A DNA stretch of 59,034 nucleotides from Candidatus Coproplasma stercoravium (GTDB lineage: Bacteria > Bacillota > Clostridia > Christensenellales > Borkfalkiaceae). Numbering within the stretch: the first letter of the stretch is position 1; the number at the start of each line of letters is the position of its first letter. The notes beneath the pieces were generated by a model. It was not told the DNA's origin, did not search any database, and was given only the letters and a program-made list of their open reading frames with translations. The DNA is taken from assembly GCA_018713165.1 (NCBI GenBank), contig DVFR01000025.1:1-59034 (forward strand), given 5' to 3'. Positions 38,599 through 45,924 of this stretch are shown one piece after another. The position numbers were made by a program, and so were the translations under genes.

Positions 38599-40275
38599 CT
38601 ATTTTGCGGAAACTATTTCAACCGCTATATCGTCGCCGAACTGCGAGAGATATTCGTCGGTGCGGCTCGATACGAAGCTTGCGCCCGTGACGGTGAAACT
38701 TTCGTCCTGAACGAAAGTGAAGTTTCGAAGGTATTCTTCACCCGTGGACGTAAAGGAACATTCCTCCTCCGTAGGGCGGCCGCCCGCGAGGGCTATGTTT
38801 TTTACCGTTACGTTGTCTACGTAGCGGTTGCTCTCGAAGCCTATGCGCGAATCGTAGCACCCGCCCATCACGGCGGTAAACCTGCGCGCAGATATCACGT
38901 TTACGTTTTCCACCGTAACCCCGTCGACGTTGCCGAGCGGGGTCGGGTCGGTGTGCTGGTCAGACCACGTGGGGGAATACAGCACGCGGAAGTCGATTAT
39001 TCCCGCGCCGTCGGCGGCGTTTCTGCCGTCCTCTACCGTTATGTTGCGCCATACGACGTTCTTTATTTCGGCGTTGTTGGCGTTGTGTATGCTCATCACC
39101 GCAAGGTTCATGGCGTGAAGCACGGTTATGTTGTCGAAGGTTATATTTTCAAACTTTTCGCCCACCGTTTCGTAGCCGAGTTCCATGCTCTGAGCAAGGT
39201 CTGTCCACACGGTGCAGTTCGTGAACGTTATGTTTTCCGTTTCGCCGTAAACCGTTCTGTCGTCCCAGCGGGGATAATTTTTAACGACGAGCGAATCGTC
39301 CCAACTGCGCACAAAGCAGCCGTCTACCTCTATGTTTTTGCACGATTGCAGAGAGATTCCGTCGCCGTTCGAGCGCGAGGAGATTATCTTTACGTCGTCA
39401 ATCTTCGAATCTTCGATAAAGTAGAAATTTACGCACCAGCCTGCGGGGTCGAGCACAAAAAACTGCTTTAAAATAACGTTCGAGCAGTAGTTGAACTCGA
39501 GGGGAACGGTTACCGTGCCCGCGTTTGCGTCGCGCTCGAACGCGCTGCCGTCTATCACGCCCCTGCCCGCTATCATGATATTTTCGGCATTGTTTGCCGA
39601 AAATTTTGCACGGACTACCGCGCCGTCCTCCAGATATACGAGGGTGTCGGACGAGAGGGTTACGACGTTATTATCCGAAATGCGTTCGTCGTTTTCGGCG
39701 GTATGCAGCCCCGCTTCGAACACCATTACGTTTTTATAGCCCGAAATATCGGCCGCGCCGTCTGACTCGTCGTAGTCGCTGACAAAGAAGTGAATGGCGT
39801 CGTACGCCTCGCCGTTGATTTCGAGGACGTATTCGCCGGCGCTTGAAAAGGTGAAAGTGAGCTCGTTTTCTTCGATGTTTGCAATGGGGGTTATCTTTGC
39901 CGAAAGCGGACGGACGACGGAGGAATAGTTTATCTCCGTCTGAGGCCTGACGGTAACGGTTGCCGTGCCGTCGAGCTCCAGAAGGCACACGCCGTTTTGC
40001 ACCCTGCGATAATTGTTGGCCGTCCAGCTCTGCGAGGTGTTCACCATAACCGAATATACGGGAATTTCTTCGCCGTTTATATAAACTTCGGCGCCCGAAT
40101 AGCGCTCGACGCCCTCGGGTATATCGTAAACACGCACTCTGTTGGTTTTTGCCGTGCCCGTCACGTCATCCCCGCCATCGCCGGGCGTGCCGCCTTCGGC
40201 ACACCCGGCAGCCATGGAGAATATGGAGAAACATATGACTAAAATCGAAATTAATATTTTTTTAAAATTTTTCAT
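38599..40275 (-). CDS. Beta-helix (GH28-like) lipoprotein, shorter paralog
   Basis: 558 residues. Lipobox MAAGC with Cys25. The same layout as its neighbour, up to the end of the helix: NGDGISLQS, RSWDDSLVVKN, DLAQSMELGYET and MSIHNANNAEI. It lacks the discoidin modules. The ATG at 40275 opens a clear lipoprotein signal, while the longer frame adds 13 unrelated residues. The ribosome site is poor (AAGG). The 128 bp to the next gene hold nothing recognisable. Substrate unknown. Confidence 0.82.
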   Translation of the reverse strand: MKNFKKILISILVICFSIFSMAAGCAEGGTPGDGGDDVTGTAKTNRVRVYDIPEGVERYSGAEVYINGEEIPVYSVMVNTSQSWTANNYRRVQNGVCLLELDGTATVTVRPQTEINYSSVVRPLSAKITPIANIEENELTFTFSSAGEYVLEINGEAYDAIHFFVSDYDESDGAADISGYKNVMVFEAGLHTAENDERISDNNVVTLSSDTLVYLEDGAVVRAKFSANNAENIMIAGRGVIDGSAFERDANAGTVTVPLEFNYCSNVILKQFFVLDPAGWCVNFYFIEDSKIDDVKIISSRSNGDGISLQSCKNIEVDGCFVRSWDDSLVVKNYPRWDDRTVYGETENITFTNCTVWTDLAQSMELGYETVGEKFENITFDNITVLHAMNLAVMSIHNANNAEIKNVVWRNITVEDGRNAADGAGIIDFRVLYSPTWSDQHTDPTPLGNVDGVTVENVNVISARRFTAVMGGCYDSRIGFESNRYVDNVTVKNIALAGGRPTEEECSFTSTGEEYLRNFTFVQDESFTVTGASFVSSRTDEYLSQFGDDIAVEIVSAK

Positions 40276-40306
40276 AACCTTAAATATAAACAATAGCTCA
40301 ATTGAC

Positions 40307-40328
40307 TGCGGCATATATGCGGGGCAAT
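40307..40328 (+). repeat. Dispersed palindrome-core motif, copy 5
   Basis: TGCGGCATATATGCGGGGCAAT, in the gap between the ABC ATPase stop and the beta-helix gene; orientation opposite to copies 2-4. Confidence 0.75.
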
Positions 40329-40361: not shown

Positions 40362-42446
40362 TTACGAGATTTTAATTTCCAGCTTTTTATCGTACACGGC
40401 AGATTTTGTGAGGTCTATGCCGAAGCTGACCGTATTTTCGCCGCCCTTATAGGGTACGGCAATCTCCTTGCCGCAGAACGAACATACCGCAAATTTGCGC
40501 CTGCCGTAGTCGCATACCCTTATTATGTCTGCGGTGAAAGTATCTTCGTCGGTTACCGAGAACTCGTAGAATTTAAGTTCCATATCTTCGCCGAAAATCT
40601 TTCTGTCGCTCGCGCCGAGCAGGCGCTTGAGTACGGGATAGGGGCAGGTTATCTTGGTTCCGCCCACGTCGATGTCTATGTCGAAAGCTCTCTTTTCCTC
40701 TTCCGGAAGAGCTTCGCGCGATTTTTTGTCGAGCGGGCGCTTTATGAGCTTTACGTCGACGACGTTCTCCGTGCTGAGGGCGGAAACCTCCTCCGCGCCC
40801 TTAAACGTCGCCATATGCCAGTCGATATCGATATCGGCGTATCCGCCGACCTCTTCGGCAAACAGCGCGTAGAATTTTACGCCGCCGACCTCTATGCGCG
40901 CAAGGTATCCCTCTTTGAGCTTTTCACACTCGAGCACCTTCGCCCTCTGCGTGCCGCCGGGCAATACGGCGTATGAAGGGAGCACCATATCGTACCCGCC
41001 CGCAAGCGATGAGAGAGCGGGCGGAAGCGCGAACTCCGCCGTGCCGATTTGCAGTTTGCCGCCCTTTGCGACAACGGGGATGTCGTTGTACGAAACATAG
41101 CGGTTTGAGATGCATACCTCCGTTTCCTTGTCGAAGTAGTGCACCTTGTTAAAATTAATGGTTACCTTTATTTTGTCGCCGCTCACGTAAGGGCTTGCGC
41201 CCTCGGTTTTGATGACTGCGGGATAAATTCCGTTTTCGTAGTCGGTTGCGCCGTTCACCGCAAAGTCGCAGTACAAAAGCGTTTCGCGGCCGAGCATTTC
41301 GGTGTTGGTTATCACGCACTCCGCGCCTTCGTCCGATATTACGAAATCTTCGGGACGGACGCCCATTGTGACCGTTTTGCCGAGATACTTCTTTTCAAAC
41401 TTCTTTACATCTTCCGCCGAAAATTCAAGTTTCAGCCCGCCCGCGAACGTTACGGAGGCAGTTTCGCCGTCGACGTTTACAACCGCGTCGAGGAAGTTCA
41501 TCGAGGGCGTTCCGATAAAGCCTGCGACGAACAGATTTGCTGGATATTCGTAGAGGTTGGCGGGCGTATCAATCTGCTGAATCGTGCCCTTTTTCATGAC
41601 GACGATTCTGTCGCCCATGGTCATAGCCTCTACCTGGTCGTGTGTTACGTATATAAATGTCGTCTTTAACCTGTTGTGGAGCTTGGTTATTTCGCTGCGC
41701 ATCTGCGTGCGGAGCTTTGCGTCGAGGTTCGACAATGGCTCGTCCAGAAGGAACACCTTGGGATTGCGAACCATCGCCCTGCCGAGCGCCACCCTCTGCC
41801 TCTGGCCGCCGCTCATCGCGCCGGGTTTTTTGCCGAGGTACTCTTCGAGCCCCAGAATTTTTGCAATCTCTATCACGCGGGTATAGATGCGCTCGCGCTT
41901 GGTTTGCCAAAGCCTTACAGGCCATAAAAGCGAGTTAAAAAAGGGCGTATTGAAGTTGAAAATCTTTTTTAGCCTGTGCTTAAAACCCTTTTTGGAATTT
42001 TTACCCGATGTTACGGCTTCCTTTACCTCTTCGGCCTTTTCCGCCTCTTCGTTCTTCTCTTCGGTAAGCTTTTTGCGGGGATAAACTTCTTCGGCGCGGC
42101 GCCTTATTTCGGCCTTCTCTTCCTTGGTGAGTTTGGTCATTTTGAGGGGGAAAGCCATATTGTCGGCAACGGTCATGTGCGGATAGAGCGCATAGTTCTG
42201 GAAAACCATGGCGGTATCGCGCAGTTTGCAGTCGATATCGTTTACTACGACGTCGTCTATTTTAAGTTCGCCCGCGGAAATCTCCTCGAGCCCCGCAATC
42301 ATGCGCAGCACCGTCGACTTGCCGCAGCCGGAGGGGCCGACGAACACGATGAACTCCTTGTCGTCAATCTCCATAGAGAAGTCGTTCACCGCCTTGGTGC
42401 CGTTTGGATAAACTTTATAAATATTCTTTAAACTCAGACTTGCCAT
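40362..42446 (-). CDS. MsmK/UgpC-type sugar ABC transporter ATPase with insertion and long tail
   Basis: 694 residues, nearly twice the usual 370. Walker A GPSGCGKST (37-45), Q-loop Gln83, signature MSGGQ (211-215), Walker B VFLLDEP (231-237) and the H-loop in YVTHDQ are intact. About 75 extra residues lie between Q-loop and signature: a charged coiled stretch, then a basic/aromatic stretch (KKGFKHRLKKIF, LLWPVRLWQ). The MalK-type TOBE region ends near 460. About 230 further residues of unknown fold follow, with a CSFC near the end. Probably powers the ABC permeases at 24-26 kb, which lack an ATPase. The ATG at 42446 follows GAGGAA. Confidence 0.88.
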   Translation of the reverse strand: MASLSLKNIYKVYPNGTKAVNDFSMEIDDKEFIVFVGPSGCGKSTVLRMIAGLEEISAGELKIDDVVVNDIDCKLRDTAMVFQNYALYPHMTVADNMAFPLKMTKLTKEEKAEIRRRAEEVYPRKKLTEEKNEEAEKAEEVKEAVTSGKNSKKGFKHRLKKIFNFNTPFFNSLLWPVRLWQTKRERIYTRVIEIAKILGLEEYLGKKPGAMSGGQRQRVALGRAMVRNPKVFLLDEPLSNLDAKLRTQMRSEITKLHNRLKTTFIYVTHDQVEAMTMGDRIVVMKKGTIQQIDTPANLYEYPANLFVAGFIGTPSMNFLDAVVNVDGETASVTFAGGLKLEFSAEDVKKFEKKYLGKTVTMGVRPEDFVISDEGAECVITNTEMLGRETLLYCDFAVNGATDYENGIYPAVIKTEGASPYVSGDKIKVTINFNKVHYFDKETEVCISNRYVSYNDIPVVAKGGKLQIGTAEFALPPALSSLAGGYDMVLPSYAVLPGGTQRAKVLECEKLKEGYLARIEVGGVKFYALFAEEVGGYADIDIDWHMATFKGAEEVSALSTENVVDVKLIKRPLDKKSREALPEEEKRAFDIDIDVGGTKITCPYPVLKRLLGASDRKIFGEDMELKFYEFSVTDEDTFTADIIRVCDYGRRKFAVCSFCGKEIAVPYKGGENTVSFGIDLTKSAVYDKKLEIKIS

Positions 42447-42477
42447 AGCCGTTCCTCGCACTCACATTTATAGTTAC

Positions 42478-42710: not shown

Positions 42711-43694
42711 TTAACAATCGCGGCGGTTGAGAGAAAGTATCGCCTGTCCGCCGTCTGCCGAAAAGCGGAGCAGTTTTTCGCCTTCCGCCTCCTCCGCAAA
42801 CAAATTTACGGCGGCGGGTGCGCGGCGCGAACGCGTTACGATATAGTAATTGCCGCCGCAGGCGTCCATACAGCAGGAATAGCGGGTGTAAAAGCCGCCG
42901 TTTTCCGTTCCGCACGCGCCGCGCGGAACTTCGACGGAAGAGAGGACGTCGAAGAACATTCCGAGCGCCTCCTCCCCTTCGAGCGATGCCGGGGCGTTGC
43001 CGCGCACGAACGCCGCCCGCACGAAGCGCGACTGCGGCGAAAAATCGCCCGGAAGCCCGAAGGCGCCCAACCCTGCGCCGTATGGCGAGAGAGAAAGCCC
43101 CTTTGCAAAGTTGTTTTGCGGCGGGCGGGCAGAGAGAGACATATAGTTTGCAAGATTTTGCATGTGGTATAAAAAGGGCGGGTTGTTGGTGAGAACGCCC
43201 GCGGGATTTTCGTACACATTCAGCCCCGAGGATGTGCACTCCACGGTGAGCGTGCGGGAACCGTCGGCGATTAGCCAGTGCAGTTCGGCGGGCGGAAGGT
43301 CGGGCGAGAAACTTTCGGGAGTGATATTTATATTTTCAAGCGCGGCCGCCGCCTCGTCGGCGCTTGCAAAGCTCCCGAGAACGTACGGAATAAATTCGAA
43401 CTGTGCAAGGTTGGTTTTGCCGCTCTTCGCGGGAAAGTAGTGCGCGTTGCCGATAAAATTTAGTCCCGCGGCGCACAAACCCCTTTCGTTCATGCCGTCG
43501 AAAAAGAGCGGATAGCCGCCGGAAACAATCGCCGCGCCCACGACGGCATATTTGCGGATTGACCCACGGATATACCGCAACGAAAGGGGAAATTTGCGCG
43601 GCATTACCACCACTTCCGCGCCGTAATCGCGGTCGGCGTCGAGCGTGCGCCCGAAGAAAAAAGTTTTTGCATTATATGCTATCGCAGTGCACAT
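42711..43694 (-). CDS. Choloylglycine-hydrolase family amidase (bile salt hydrolase / penicillin V acylase type)
   Basis: 327 residues, Ntn-hydrolase. The start is set by chemistry: removal of Met1 exposes the catalytic Cys2 (MCTAIAY). Arg16 and Asp19 (GRTLDAD), the Asn of AGLNF, the Asn of VLTNNP and the Arg of PQSRFVRA match the active-site set. It hydrolyses amide bonds, either of conjugated bile salts or of N-acyl compounds; the choice cannot be made here. No signal peptide. There is no ribosome site, and a -10-like CATACT lies 6 bp before the ATG. A stretch encoding about LRYIRGSI matches the dispersed repeat (20 of 24 bases). Confidence 0.88.
   Translation of the reverse strand: MCTAIAYNAKTFFFGRTLDADRDYGAEVVVMPRKFPLSLRYIRGSIRKYAVVGAAIVSGGYPLFFDGMNERGLCAAGLNFIGNAHYFPAKSGKTNLAQFEFIPYVLGSFASADEAAAALENINITPESFSPDLPPAELHWLIADGSRTLTVECTSSGLNVYENPAGVLTNNPPFLYHMQNLANYMSLSARPPQNNFAKGLSLSPYGAGLGAFGLPGDFSPQSRFVRAAFVRGNAPASLEGEEALGMFFDVLSSVEVPRGACGTENGGFYTRYSCCMDACGGNYYIVTRSRRAPAAVNLFAEEAEGEKLLRFSADGGQAILSLNRRDC
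43558..43581 (-). repeat. Degenerate dispersed motif inside the amidase gene
   Basis: 20 of 24 bases match copies 2 and 4. A weaker resemblance occurs at 43749-43774, upstream of the same gene. Confidence 0.4.
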
Positions 43695-43780
43695 AAAAAC
43701 AGTATGCGCAAGATAAAAAATTTTTTTTGAGTTTATATTTATTTTTTTAATTGCACCACACATAAGCCGCGACGGAACAA

Positions 43781-43822
43781 AAAAATGGCGCCGCATTGCG
43801 TTTGCAATGCGGCGCCATTTTT
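43781..43822. terminator. Bidirectional terminator after the membrane amidohydrolase
   Basis: 19-bp perfect arms (43781-43799 and 43804-43822) with A and T ends. Confidence 0.85.
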
Positions 43823-43847
43823 ACTGACGAAAATTTATTTTACCGGC

Positions 43848-45104
43848 TCAGCCGAGAGATGTAAGCTTGCCCGTATTGAGGTCATACTGCCATATTGCGG
43901 AAGGATCGTCGAAATTTTCGTTGGCAACCCAGAGTACCGTTTTTTGGGTGAGGTTGTAAACGGCGCTGTGCACGGTTACGCCGCCACCGCCGTTCCACGT
44001 TCTCCTGCCTACCGCCTGCAATATATCCATCGCCGCCTGTTCGTCCTTCACAACTCCGCTGACCGCCGAGAGTTGCGAATTTATATAGTCGTACCTGTCG
44101 GCGCCCTGCGCCGCGTCGTCGGACTCGCCGTCGTAATAGCCGGGCGTTATAATGAAGTTTGTGATTGTCTGGAAGTTGAAATCGGAACCTTCGAGCAGTT
44201 CGTCGTACATGGGGTCGTCGTTATAGATGACGTTGAGCGTGCGCGCGGAACCGTCGTTGTCCTCAGAGTCGGTCACGCCCTCGGCGGGCACCCACTCCAA
44301 AATGCCGCTCCTGCCGCTCGCGTCGGCTATCATATAGTGGAAAGAGGTGTTCGCCGAATCGTGGAGGTTATAGTTTTGTATGAGCTCCACCGCCTCGTCC
44401 ACGTCGTCGGCATAGTCGAGCACGAGGCGGAGCATGGTCGTGGAAGTAATGTTATCCTTAGCCGCGTCCTGCTGGTTCGTGGATACGGTGTCCTTACCCT
44501 GGTAGGACATATATATGCCGCAGCTTACGCCCGCGTCGTTTATCCCGTCGAGCGGGGCATAGGGCGAAGCAAGGCAGGTCACTTTGTCTAAAAGCCCCTC
44601 CACGTCGCCGTTTATATCAACGCCCACGTAGTTCAAATCTACAGTGGAGAAAGATTTGTGCCTGCCCTCGCCGGGGTCGCATATGGTGAGGCATACGTTG
44701 GTTTTGTTGAAGTCGTAGTTTCTGGCGAAGAGTATGTCGCCGTTTTCGGCCTTTGCAATGAAGGAAGAGCAGCCGATGTCCGTTTCGCCAATCTCCATAT
44801 TTATAAGACCGCGTGTAATGTTGCCCGTTATAAAATCGATAAGCTCGCTGTCGCCCGAAGCTCCGCCCTGCGCGAGGAACTCGTCGAAATAGAAATCGCC
44901 CATAACCTCCATGCTGTAAACAGAGCCCTCTTTGTTGTCGTCGTTGCGGGCGCGCAGGTGCGTGAACGTGCGCAGAGTTTCAATCTCGTACGCCCATTCC
45001 CACGCGAACGCTATGCCGAGGCAGCCGAGCGCGAAAATAATTACCGCGAGCACTATGCACAGCACGCGCCACCAGATTCTGCGTTTTTTCTTTGTCGTTT
45101 CCAT
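43848..45104 (-). CDS. Membrane-anchored C45-like linear-amide hydrolase
   Basis: 418 residues. One N-terminal transmembrane anchor (about 13-35), so the catalytic part faces outside. The putative nucleophile is Cys112, in ETDIGCSSFIAKAENGDILF, matching the acyl-CoA:6-APA acyltransferase / N-acylethanolamine amidase group (Ntn fold). That fold would require cleavage between Gly111 and Cys112 to activate it. NYDFNK and LDGINDAGVSCGIY resemble the substrate-pocket motifs of the family. Substrate unknown. Confidence 0.8.
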   Translation of the reverse strand: METTKKKRRIWWRVLCIVLAVIIFALGCLGIAFAWEWAYEIETLRTFTHLRARNDDNKEGSVYSMEVMGDFYFDEFLAQGGASGDSELIDFITGNITRGLINMEIGETDIGCSSFIAKAENGDILFARNYDFNKTNVCLTICDPGEGRHKSFSTVDLNYVGVDINGDVEGLLDKVTCLASPYAPLDGINDAGVSCGIYMSYQGKDTVSTNQQDAAKDNITSTTMLRLVLDYADDVDEAVELIQNYNLHDSANTSFHYMIADASGRSGILEWVPAEGVTDSEDNDGSARTLNVIYNDDPMYDELLEGSDFNFQTITNFIITPGYYDGESDDAAQGADRYDYINSQLSAVSGVVKDEQAAMDILQAVGRRTWNGGGGVTVHSAVYNLTQKTVLWVANENFDDPSAIWQYDLNTGKLTSLG

Positions 45105-45199
45105 TGACCTTTTTTGTTCTCCTTAAAAAATAAAATTTACCCCGCGAAAGGCTATCCCCGGCGGGTCATTCATGAGGGCGCAAAACCGCGCGCCCCGAT

Positions 45200-45643
45200 T
45201 TACCTGCCGTTTTTTATAAGCCCTTCGTAATACGTTTCGAGGTTGGAGGCGATTGAATAGAGCGATTTATAGAGAATAATCCTTTCGGGCTCCGTCAAAT
45301 CTTTGCCCGCTGCGCTGACTGCCGCCGCCGCGCGTACGTTTATGAATCCGCACAGCTTTTTCCCCTCGTCGGTGAGCCGGATTTCGGCATTATACGCCCC
45401 CGCGGGATAGGTAATATATCCCTTTTCTTTGAGAAGGGAGAGCGCGCGGGAAATTGCCGCCTTGTCTTCGGAGGTGAGCCTGCACAGCTCCACCGCCGTT
45501 ACGGGCGAAAGCCCCGCAAAGTATATGCACATGACGTGAATGGCTTTTAGGCCGTACGACTCCATCTCGAACAGCTTTATCTTTTGAACGAGCTTGCCGA
45601 GCTTTAAAATCGTAACGGTGAAATTTTCGAACCTGCCGTCCAT
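45200..45643 (-). CDS. MarR-family transcriptional regulator
   Basis: 147 residues. The winged helix is visible: AVELCRLTSEDKAAISRALSLLKEKGYI, then a beta-wing with TYPAGAYNAEIRLTDEGKKL. It probably represses its own gene through two TTGA-N4-TCAA sites. It may also control the two amide hydrolases downstream (gap of 95 bp to the next gene), but this is inference. The ribosome site GGAGCGG lies upstream of the ATG. Confidence 0.9.
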   Translation of the reverse strand: MDGRFENFTVTILKLGKLVQKIKLFEMESYGLKAIHVMCIYFAGLSPVTAVELCRLTSEDKAAISRALSLLKEKGYITYPAGAYNAEIRLTDEGKKLCGFINVRAAAAVSAAGKDLTEPERIILYKSLYSIASNLETYYEGLIKNGR

Positions 45644-45675: not shown

Positions 45676-45745
45676 TTGATTAATCAACATCGGAGATTAT
45701 AGCCGCTTTTTTTGCGCTTGTCAAATAAAATCGTTGATAACTCAA
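45676..45745 (-). promoter_or_regulatory. Consensus promoter of marR with two operator sites
   Basis: Minus strand TTGACA (45724-45719), 17 bp, TATAAT (45701-45696). Palindrome TTGATTAATCAA (45676-45687) covers the transcription start region and TTGATAACTCAA (45734-45745) lies just above the -35. The centres are 58 bp apart. Confidence 0.85.
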
Positions 45746-45790
45746 CAAATTTCACATTTAAATCCGTGCGGCGAAAAGATAAAAAATAAA

Positions 45791-45826
45791 TCCGTCCGCG
45801 GGCTCCTTTAAGAGCCCGCGGACGGA
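45791..45826 (-). terminator. Terminator of mgsA
   Basis: 15-bp perfect arms (45791-45805 and 45812-45826), T-rich on the minus strand. The next 100 bp hold nothing else recognised. Confidence 0.85.
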
Positions 45827-45924
45827 CGATAAATTTATGTTATTTAAGGGATATATGGGCATCAATTAAGTTTTTATCAAGAAAATAGTTTACAATATTT
45901 TGCAGCTTGCGCGCTGAAAAAAGT

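Follow-up and report, generated by a model that had tools for sequence, protein, structure and literature searches.

A MarR-type operator and a membrane-tethered Ntn hydrolase in a candidate lipid-acyl programme of gut Clostridia

Closest described systems

The window analysed here is the whole stretch of 59,034 nucleotides of contig DVFR01000025.1 (assembly GCA_018713165.1) from Candidatus Coproplasma stercoravium. It contains a MarR-family regulator gene, a gene for a membrane-tethered N-terminal nucleophile (Ntn) hydrolase (TETH, the tethered protein), and a bile-salt-hydrolase-like gene (BSH, used for gene and protein). The C45/AAT enzymes, NAAA and acid ceramidase resemble TETH in the pro-segment and catalytic fold, the Cys after a small residue, and the conserved R, D, N and R residues. 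TETH differs from them in being bacterial and anchored by an N-terminal transmembrane (TM) segment, in scoring under the cut-off of NF040521, and in its apparent lipid-regulon setting. The BSH and penicillin V acylase (PVA) enzymes (PF02275) share the catalytic fold with TETH (Z ~20-24; PVA, Z ~23). However, they match TETH only from Cys112 or just before, with 11-24% identity, and nothing points to joint regulation with the local BSH.

The nearest analogue of the window MarR regulon is the FabT regulon of streptococci and enterococci, although the window MarR is only distantly FabT-like. FabT is also a MarR-type first gene of a fatty-acid operon; in the available text of the same source, FabT controls synthesis genes, FakAB/PlsX lie outside FabT control, and FakAB uptake is constitutive in enterococci and streptococci (PMC13046290). 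The FabT palindrome, given in the source excerpt as ANTTTGACTGTNAAATT with a TTTGA half-site (PMC8406281), can be likened to the window operator. In contrast to the FabT regulon, the operator here is found on FakB-type, aldehyde, and hydrolase genes. The acyl-binding proteins thus appear to be under a dedicated regulator, unlike the constitutive FakAB uptake. The FabT structure 6jbx matched the MarR profile weakly (E 2.8e-4), with about 50 other MarR-family sequences ranked above it, and the idea that the MarR is a FabT orthologue was not kept.

The plsA-plsR plasmalogen synthase operon of Clostridium perfringens shares 2-hydroxyacyl-CoA dehydratase-type parts (DUF2229, HGD-D, and BcrAD_BadFG) with one operon found here (L227). 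In that operon, a DegV gene is followed by the parts as three separate genes, and the likeness is by domain type, not by PlsA/PlsR identity. PlsA and PlsR presumably carry exactly the DUF2229/HGD-D/BcrAD Pfam domains. They are described as HAD/BCR family in the part of the source available (PMC12838417). Clustered homologues of the dehydratase-type parts also occur in L055, L091, and, by eye, L228.

Literature searches combining DegV, MarR, aldehyde dehydrogenase (ALDH), and choloylglycine hydrolase found no description of this regulon. Searches on FakB, YhhN, and plasmalogen synthase, and on membrane-anchored gut amide hydrolases, found nothing on this system among the papers listed. We consider it rather probable that MarR controls lipid-acyl scavenging or remodelling, that an acyl amide outside the cell (or possibly an ester) is cleaved by TETH to yield a fatty acid, and that BSH is separate. 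The broader proposal is held more tentatively. Gut Clostridia might possess a lipid-salvage system new to the literature, in which a MarR repressor with the GTTGA-N4-TCAAC operator would switch on a self-activating surface Ntn hydrolase that removes acyl chains from N-acyl lipids of host or bacterial origin (or from plasmalogens). Acyl carriers of the FakB type, a lysoplasmalogenase, fatty aldehyde and alcohol dehydrogenases, and plasmalogen-synthase-like enzymes would be switched on with it. The acyl chains would be liberated, captured, and converted as one programme.

Operator and gene order of the MarR-TETH unit

The gene content, the operator, its co-occurrence with MarR, the zymogen-like fold, and the terminator before BSH were computed. 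The features of the unit are as follows.

45200..45643, minus strand: MarR-family regulator gene; open reading frame (ORF) of 147 amino acids (aa), first gene of the unit
43848..45104, minus strand: TETH, membrane-tethered Ntn hydrolase and predicted zymogen; ORF of 418 aa
45733..45746, minus strand: operator 1, GTTGAGTTATCAAC, immediately upstream of the -35 box
45696..45724, minus strand: promoter-like TTGACA-17-TATAAT; 12/12 consensus positions match
45676..45688, minus strand: operator 2, GTTGATTAATCAA, spaced 58 bp from operator 1 and located where transcription is expected to start
44997..45089, minus strand: predicted TETH transmembrane helix, residues 6-36; helix in the AlphaFold2 model, basic residues before it
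44772..44969, minus strand: predicted TETH pro-segment, residues ~46-111, from structural alignment; alpha chain after the predicted self-cleavage
44769..44771, minus strand: codon of the nucleophile Cys112 of TETH; preceding residue Gly, Ala or Asn in homologues

The perfect promoter before MarR is flanked by the two operators. The operator can be written as GTTGA-N4-TCAAC, with the core TTGA-N4-TCAA recurring upstream of the MarR homologues. The core served as the search pattern, so that the flanking G and C were outside it; these were kept in 95% and 90%, respectively, of 140 distinct sites. The core was found in 80/159 distinct MarR/TETH upstream regions, whereas each of 11 other permuted half-site palindromes was found in 0-3/159. 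The sites of a pair are mostly 57-60, 34-38 or 20-21 bp apart, and 58 bp is the commonest spacing. Paired sites occur in 32/93 genomes of the genus sample, compared with one genome for the reversed control. The genomes compared are related and rich in metagenome-assembled genomes (MAGs), and all counts are raw, with kinship ignored.

The operator co-occurs with the regulator. Full-length TETH was found in 32 of the 93 genus genomes, the MarR orthologue (>110 bits) in 50, and both in 27 (Fisher p 1.3e-5, kinship ignored). MarR is upstream of TETH in the same cluster in 16 genomes, and all 16 have the operator before MarR. In the other 11 TETH units MarR is elsewhere in the genome; in nine of these the TETH promoter itself holds one to three operators, and in the remaining two the operators lie before an operon-heading DegV or ALDH gene. 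No operator was found within 300 bp of TETH in the five MarR-less genomes (G082, G090, G144, G184, and G229). Thus, the core operator precedes TETH units in 27/27 genomes with MarR and 0/5 without (exact probability 5e-6, relatedness ignored); four of the five MarR-less TETHs have similar identities to the query (57-59%) and possibly represent a single lineage. At three MarR-less loci (L044, L045, and L046), clustered GntR-like (by eye) and ABC-transporter-like genes were seen near TETH (clusters c15 and c6), perhaps a sign that the control of TETH has been replaced. A 33rd TETH match in the genus (G149:C1:194359-194538, L076) is decayed, with 39% identity and two stops, and lies directly behind a MarR gene, which suggests loss of TETH from the MarR unit.

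The MarR protein as a single sequence scored 26.4 against Pfam, just under the cut-off of 27; as a profile, its best PDB MarR/SlyA chain was matched with E 3e-12. A terminator between MarR and TETH was considered and rejected. The gap holds only a weak hairpin (-8.7 kcal/mol) with no structure excess (z +1.3), and read-through from MarR to TETH is therefore assumed. As part of the joint best explanation, MarR and TETH are rather likely to form one transcription unit, with MarR acting through the two operators flanking the promoter. The first-pass annotation had proposed MarR control of the tethered enzyme, with which the operator and the gene order agree. Its gene limits were also retained, with all three genes on the minus strand and the BSH start moved to 43694.

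The predicted zymogen and the regulon partners

The AlphaFold2 model of TETH (mean pLDDT 89.6) has a long N-terminal helix (residues 6-36) and a complete Ntn domain. In 80/80 TETH homologues, basic residues near the N-terminus are followed by a hydrophobic stretch of 19 residues; the orientation is probably N-in, with the catalytic domain outside. With a second-look structure aligner, the top PDB match was the isopenicillin-N acyltransferase (IAT) precursor 2x1c (Z 24.4, rmsd 3.4, 271 residues). Further matches were the NAAA precursor (Z 20.1) and uncleaved acid ceramidase (Z 20.0). Among the matches listed, the alignments of these three enzymes reach TETH model residues 54-62, and those of BSH/PVA begin at residues 109-112. 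Cys112 aligns with Cys2/Cys1 of mature BSH/PVA. Residues ~46-111 resemble the pro-segment of a self-cleaving enzyme, and TETH appears to be built as an Ntn hydrolase zymogen, working like the C45/NAAA enzymes. This is consistent with the earlier suggestion that TETH is activated by cleavage before Cys112, in that the pro-segment matches those of autoproteolytic precursors; the cleavage itself is predicted.

Cys112, R128, D131, N295, and R337 are invariant in 58/58 TETH homologues, and the residue before the nucleophile is Gly in 37, Ala in 15, and Asn in 6. The catalytic role of the conserved R, D, N, and R is taken to be that of BSH/PVA. TETH thus has the catalytic fold with Cys and R/D/N/R and the N-terminal pro-segment expected of an autoproteolytic Ntn Cys hydrolase. 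TETH matches PF02275 (41.0 bits) and PF03417 (28.2 bits), each above the cut-off. PF02275, PF03417, and NF040521 are each matched by 58/58 homologues at E <=0.001. The window TETH scored 75.8 bits against NF040521 (NCBIfam C45_proenzyme), where the cut-off is 85, and was therefore not filed in that family. Against the BSH equivalog NF038245, it scored 23.2 bits (cut-off 350).

Regulon partners were examined at 75 loci (72 of the genus and 3 of other genera of the family), chosen for holding MarR, TETH or a paired site. The gene after MarR was identified in 52 cases: DegV in 30, TETH in 12, ALDH, Fe-alcohol dehydrogenase (FeADH) or YhhN in 4, BSH in 1, and no tagged gene in 5. A named-genome scan gave 276 confirmed TETH relatives, of which the best 80 loci were analysed. 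They are in Coproplasma, Anaerocaecibacter, Gallimonas, Faecousia, Gemmiger, Traorella, Eubacterium, Ruminococcus, and a Treponema MAG; most are MAGs, and the cultured Anaerocaecibacter muris and Traorella massiliensis are among the carriers. Same-strand neighbours within 4.5 kb at the 80 loci were MarR (33), ALDH (28), FeADH (26), DegV (16), YhhN (11), FakA-like (5), and BSH (5). Matches by tblastn with <35% coverage and <60 bits were dropped. Of the 80 loci, 28 repeat proteins of the first set; the counts at the 52 non-repeating loci were MarR 18, ALDH 17, FeADH 16, DegV 7, YhhN 5, BSH 0, and FakA-like 0, with at least one operator site in 30/52.

Several gene orders place TETH directly among these partners, including MarR-FeADH-ALDH-TETH (L207, L208, L213, and L217), FeADH-ALDH-TETH-YhhN-DegV (L189), and MarR-DegV-TETH-YhhN-FeADH-ALDH (L181). 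Of the sites, 98/104 at the 75 loci and 42/47 at the 52 non-repeating loci have a tagged gene starting no more than 300 bp downstream. Paired sites lie before MarR, TETH, DegV or FeADH genes in 34 of 36 places; the two others (G272:C70 and G291:C68) do not precede a tagged gene. Three new operons were found through the paired-site pattern: DegV-DUF2229-HGD-D-BcrAD (L227), DegV-DUF2229-HGD-D (L228), and FeADH-ALDH (L229). As a background, ALDH was matched at E 1e-40 in 19/41 relatives, with one or two matches per genome, so chance adjacency to TETH should be rare. The partner ALDH is of class 3 and matches the human fatty aldehyde dehydrogenase 4qgk (E 6e-115). Two YhhN partners scored 75.8 and 82.9 bits against PF07947 (cut-off 25.6). 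In the available text of the source, YhhN proteins of bacteria and man convert lysoplasmalogen, not plasmalogen, to fatty aldehyde and a glycerophospho-base (PMC9052158). The three DegV partners examined all match the TIGR00762 DegV domain, and the FakAB function of the DegV and FakA-like genes is suggested by family. By pattern, the window's own genome shows MarR-TETH and a single DegV gene as the regulon; this DegV gene lies on another contig and carries TTGACAAATCAA at a promoter-like position.

In the proposed mechanism, MarR would switch the MarR-TETH unit at the two GTTGA-N4-TCAA operators, most likely as a repressor rather than an activator of the acyl-salvage programme, and its ligand is probably an acyl derivative. 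The programme under the same operator would comprise the DegV/FakB-type fatty-acid-binding proteins, FeADH with the class-3 (fatty) ALDH, and YhhN, sometimes with the DUF2229/HGD-D/BcrAD plasmalogen-synthase-like genes, in the genus and in other gut Clostridia. TETH would be made as a membrane-anchored zymogen and would cleave itself before Cys112. At the outer face, it might act on an acyl lipid, with N-acyl amides as the likeliest substrates, and set free a long-chain fatty acid; here the amide bond is suggested by the family and the acyl chain by the partners. The freed chain could be bound by a DegV protein acting as FakB, phosphorylated, and reused in phospholipids. Aldehydes from lysoplasmalogen would be oxidised or reduced by ALDH/ADH.

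Several observations weigh against this mechanism. Which bond TETH cleaves does not follow from its lipid partners. The three DegV partners scored 112.7-126.6 bits against NF038249 FakB1 (cut-off 350), and the FakA-like gene scored 385.7 against FakA (cut-off 975). No site was found in the stretch examined at 22 of the 52 further TETH loci. No lipid genes adjoin TETH in the window's own genome, whose ALDH homologue (C15) is without an operator, and its DegV type has an operator within 300 bp only in its own gene and in L120, of 30 loci. At L077, a BSH gene lies directly behind MarR, which also speaks against separate control of BSH.

The operator pattern was found at 17 places in the 1.70 Mb of the own genome, with 13 for the reversed control, and most of the other matches are likely chance. 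One match, at C41 (L114), precedes a lipoprotein-like gene and was set aside; it may be chance, because TTGACA is also the -35 box. TETH or BSH is followed by FakA (YloV-type) and DegV genes in L042, L062, L067, L068, and others, which was not used as main evidence. This adjacency is possibly plain synteny, because TETH in that clade sits among proS, mgsA, yloV, and degV. In L076 (3583-6834, G149), a 1083-aa polypeptide fuses YhhN, FeADH, and ALDH domains, and is possibly a lysoplasmalogenase joined to an aldehyde-processing enzyme. The MarR-DegV pairs of L232 and L233 have a flavin-reductase-like ORF upstream (by eye), and L238 has a 4HBT thioesterase gene between MarR and DegV.

The BSH-like gene and alternative explanations

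The remaining features around the unit are as follows.

42711..43694, minus strand: BSH-like gene; 327 aa, nucleophile Cys2; original ORF 43796-42711
43778..43822, minus strand: predicted intrinsic terminator in the TETH/BSH gap; -34.9 kcal/mol, z -7.4, 19-pair stem, T-run
45790..45827, minus strand: predicted terminator between the upstream methylglyoxal synthase gene and the MarR unit; -36.9 kcal/mol, z -7.4

The second terminator is predicted to insulate the MarR unit from the methylglyoxal synthase gene. The BSH ORF was too long at its 5' end. The Pfam CBAH match begins at residue 36, a Met-Cys start aligns to residues 35-36 in 37/37 homologues examined (one via GTG), and the surplus codons overlap the preceding terminator; the start was therefore moved from 43796 to 43694. 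The resulting protein has Cys2 directly after Met and a full-length PF02275 match. It matches the Lactobacillus salivarius BSH structure 5hke with E 8e-81, and scored 349.2 bits against NF038245, just under the cut-off of 350. Three BSH homologues in like position scored 364.7 (L063) and 358.5 (L042), which pass, and 335.3 (L062), which fails. By its sequence, the window BSH is an ordinary bile-salt-hydrolase-like enzyme. BSH (265.4 bits) and TETH (41.0 bits) are the only two PF02275 matches (cut-off 20.4) in the whole 1.70-Mb, 94%-complete genome. The earlier description of one BSH-like Cys2 enzyme and one tethered Ntn enzyme therefore stands, with PF02275 in both and Cys112 aligned to the BSH/PVA nucleophile.

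The first-pass annotation had also suggested that both enzymes, under one MarR, could share an amide substrate (a bile salt or an N-acyl signal), with one enzyme acting on each side of the membrane. The two enzymes do belong to the choloylglycine-hydrolase superfamily. Their genes are adjacent in the window and in six other genus loci (L042, L062, L063, L067, L068, and L072), making 7/32, and the BSH gene of L077 directly follows MarR. However, the terminator separates the genes here, and a hairpin with a T-rich tail lies between them in 5/6 of the other adjacent pairs. The operator was found upstream of 0/37 BSH homologues, and none is before the window BSH. A single MarR-TETH-BSH operon was dropped for the terminator and the hairpins, and BSH was dropped as a regulon member for the lack of operators in these regions. 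In the family sample of 301 genomes, 23 have both a high- and a low-scoring PF02275 match among the matches listed, on different contigs in 21 and adjacent in 2; these classes were assigned by eye, and the low class may include other subfamilies. Adjacency is thus regarded as a clade trait, given the 7/32 genus loci and the few adjacent pairs in the family sample. BSH was a neighbour at 0/52 of the further TETH loci, the other partners of MarR are fatty-acid and aldehyde genes, and the two enzymes differ in maturation type. Joint regulation was not borne out, and a shared amide is very improbable. BSH is apparently a separately transcribed neighbour outside the regulon.

The strongest competitor to amide cleavage is that TETH cleaves acyl esters, although this is still rather unlikely. 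TETH would deacylate plasmalogen or phospholipid, like a phospholipase B/A; YhhN would thereby be supplied with lysoplasmalogen, ALDH/ADH with aldehyde, and FakB with fatty acid. This would fill the missing first step of the YhhN-ADH-ALDH-DegV set, and the action of YhhN on lysoplasmalogen, not on plasmalogen, would fit. Against it, 58/58 TETH members match the amidase/acyltransferase families PF02275 and PF03417, and YhhN is near only 11 of the best 80 of 276 TETH loci. Phospholipase-B-like Ntn enzymes are not among the structural matches listed for TETH, which excludes nothing. TETH might instead be an acyltransferase, or might make or remove N-acyl amides that serve as quorum signals or host mediators, instead of supplying acyl chains, as could be supposed from the acyl-CoA:isopenicillin N acyltransferase as its top structural match and from the C45 acyltransferase/hydrolase family NF040521. 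The loci examined, in which only the tagged families were sought systematically, revealed no recognisable signal synthase or receptor; acyl-CoA would be lacking on the outer face, and the FakB-type partners point to acyl uptake. This role is improbable. Less probable still is a drug or bile stress cassette, in which MarR would sense a phenolic or bile compound and TETH would detoxify an amide antibiotic, like a penicillin V acylase. MarR regulators often sense such compounds, and the PVA structures match TETH (Z ~23); however, the recurrent partners are lipid genes, and the sequence match of TETH to PVA is weak (best profile E 9e-5).

Choloylglycine-hydrolase-superfamily genes in gut genomes are readily taken for bile-salt enzymes. 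If release of acyl chains by TETH is correct, the TETH group would be a lipid-acyl hydrolase under lipid control. N-acylethanolamines, N-acyl amides and plasmalogens serve as host signals and membrane components, and gut Clostridia would gain a regulated means of drawing acyl chains from one or other of them. The substrate of TETH would then be directly testable.

Elsewhere in the window, the gene at 40362-42461 encodes a 699-aa ABC ATPase of the UgpC/MalK type, in which the ATPase domain carries a long insertion and the C-terminus a long extension (placed by eye). Downstream of it, the gene at 38599-40314 encodes a GH28-family protein with a lipoprotein-like N-terminus (by eye).

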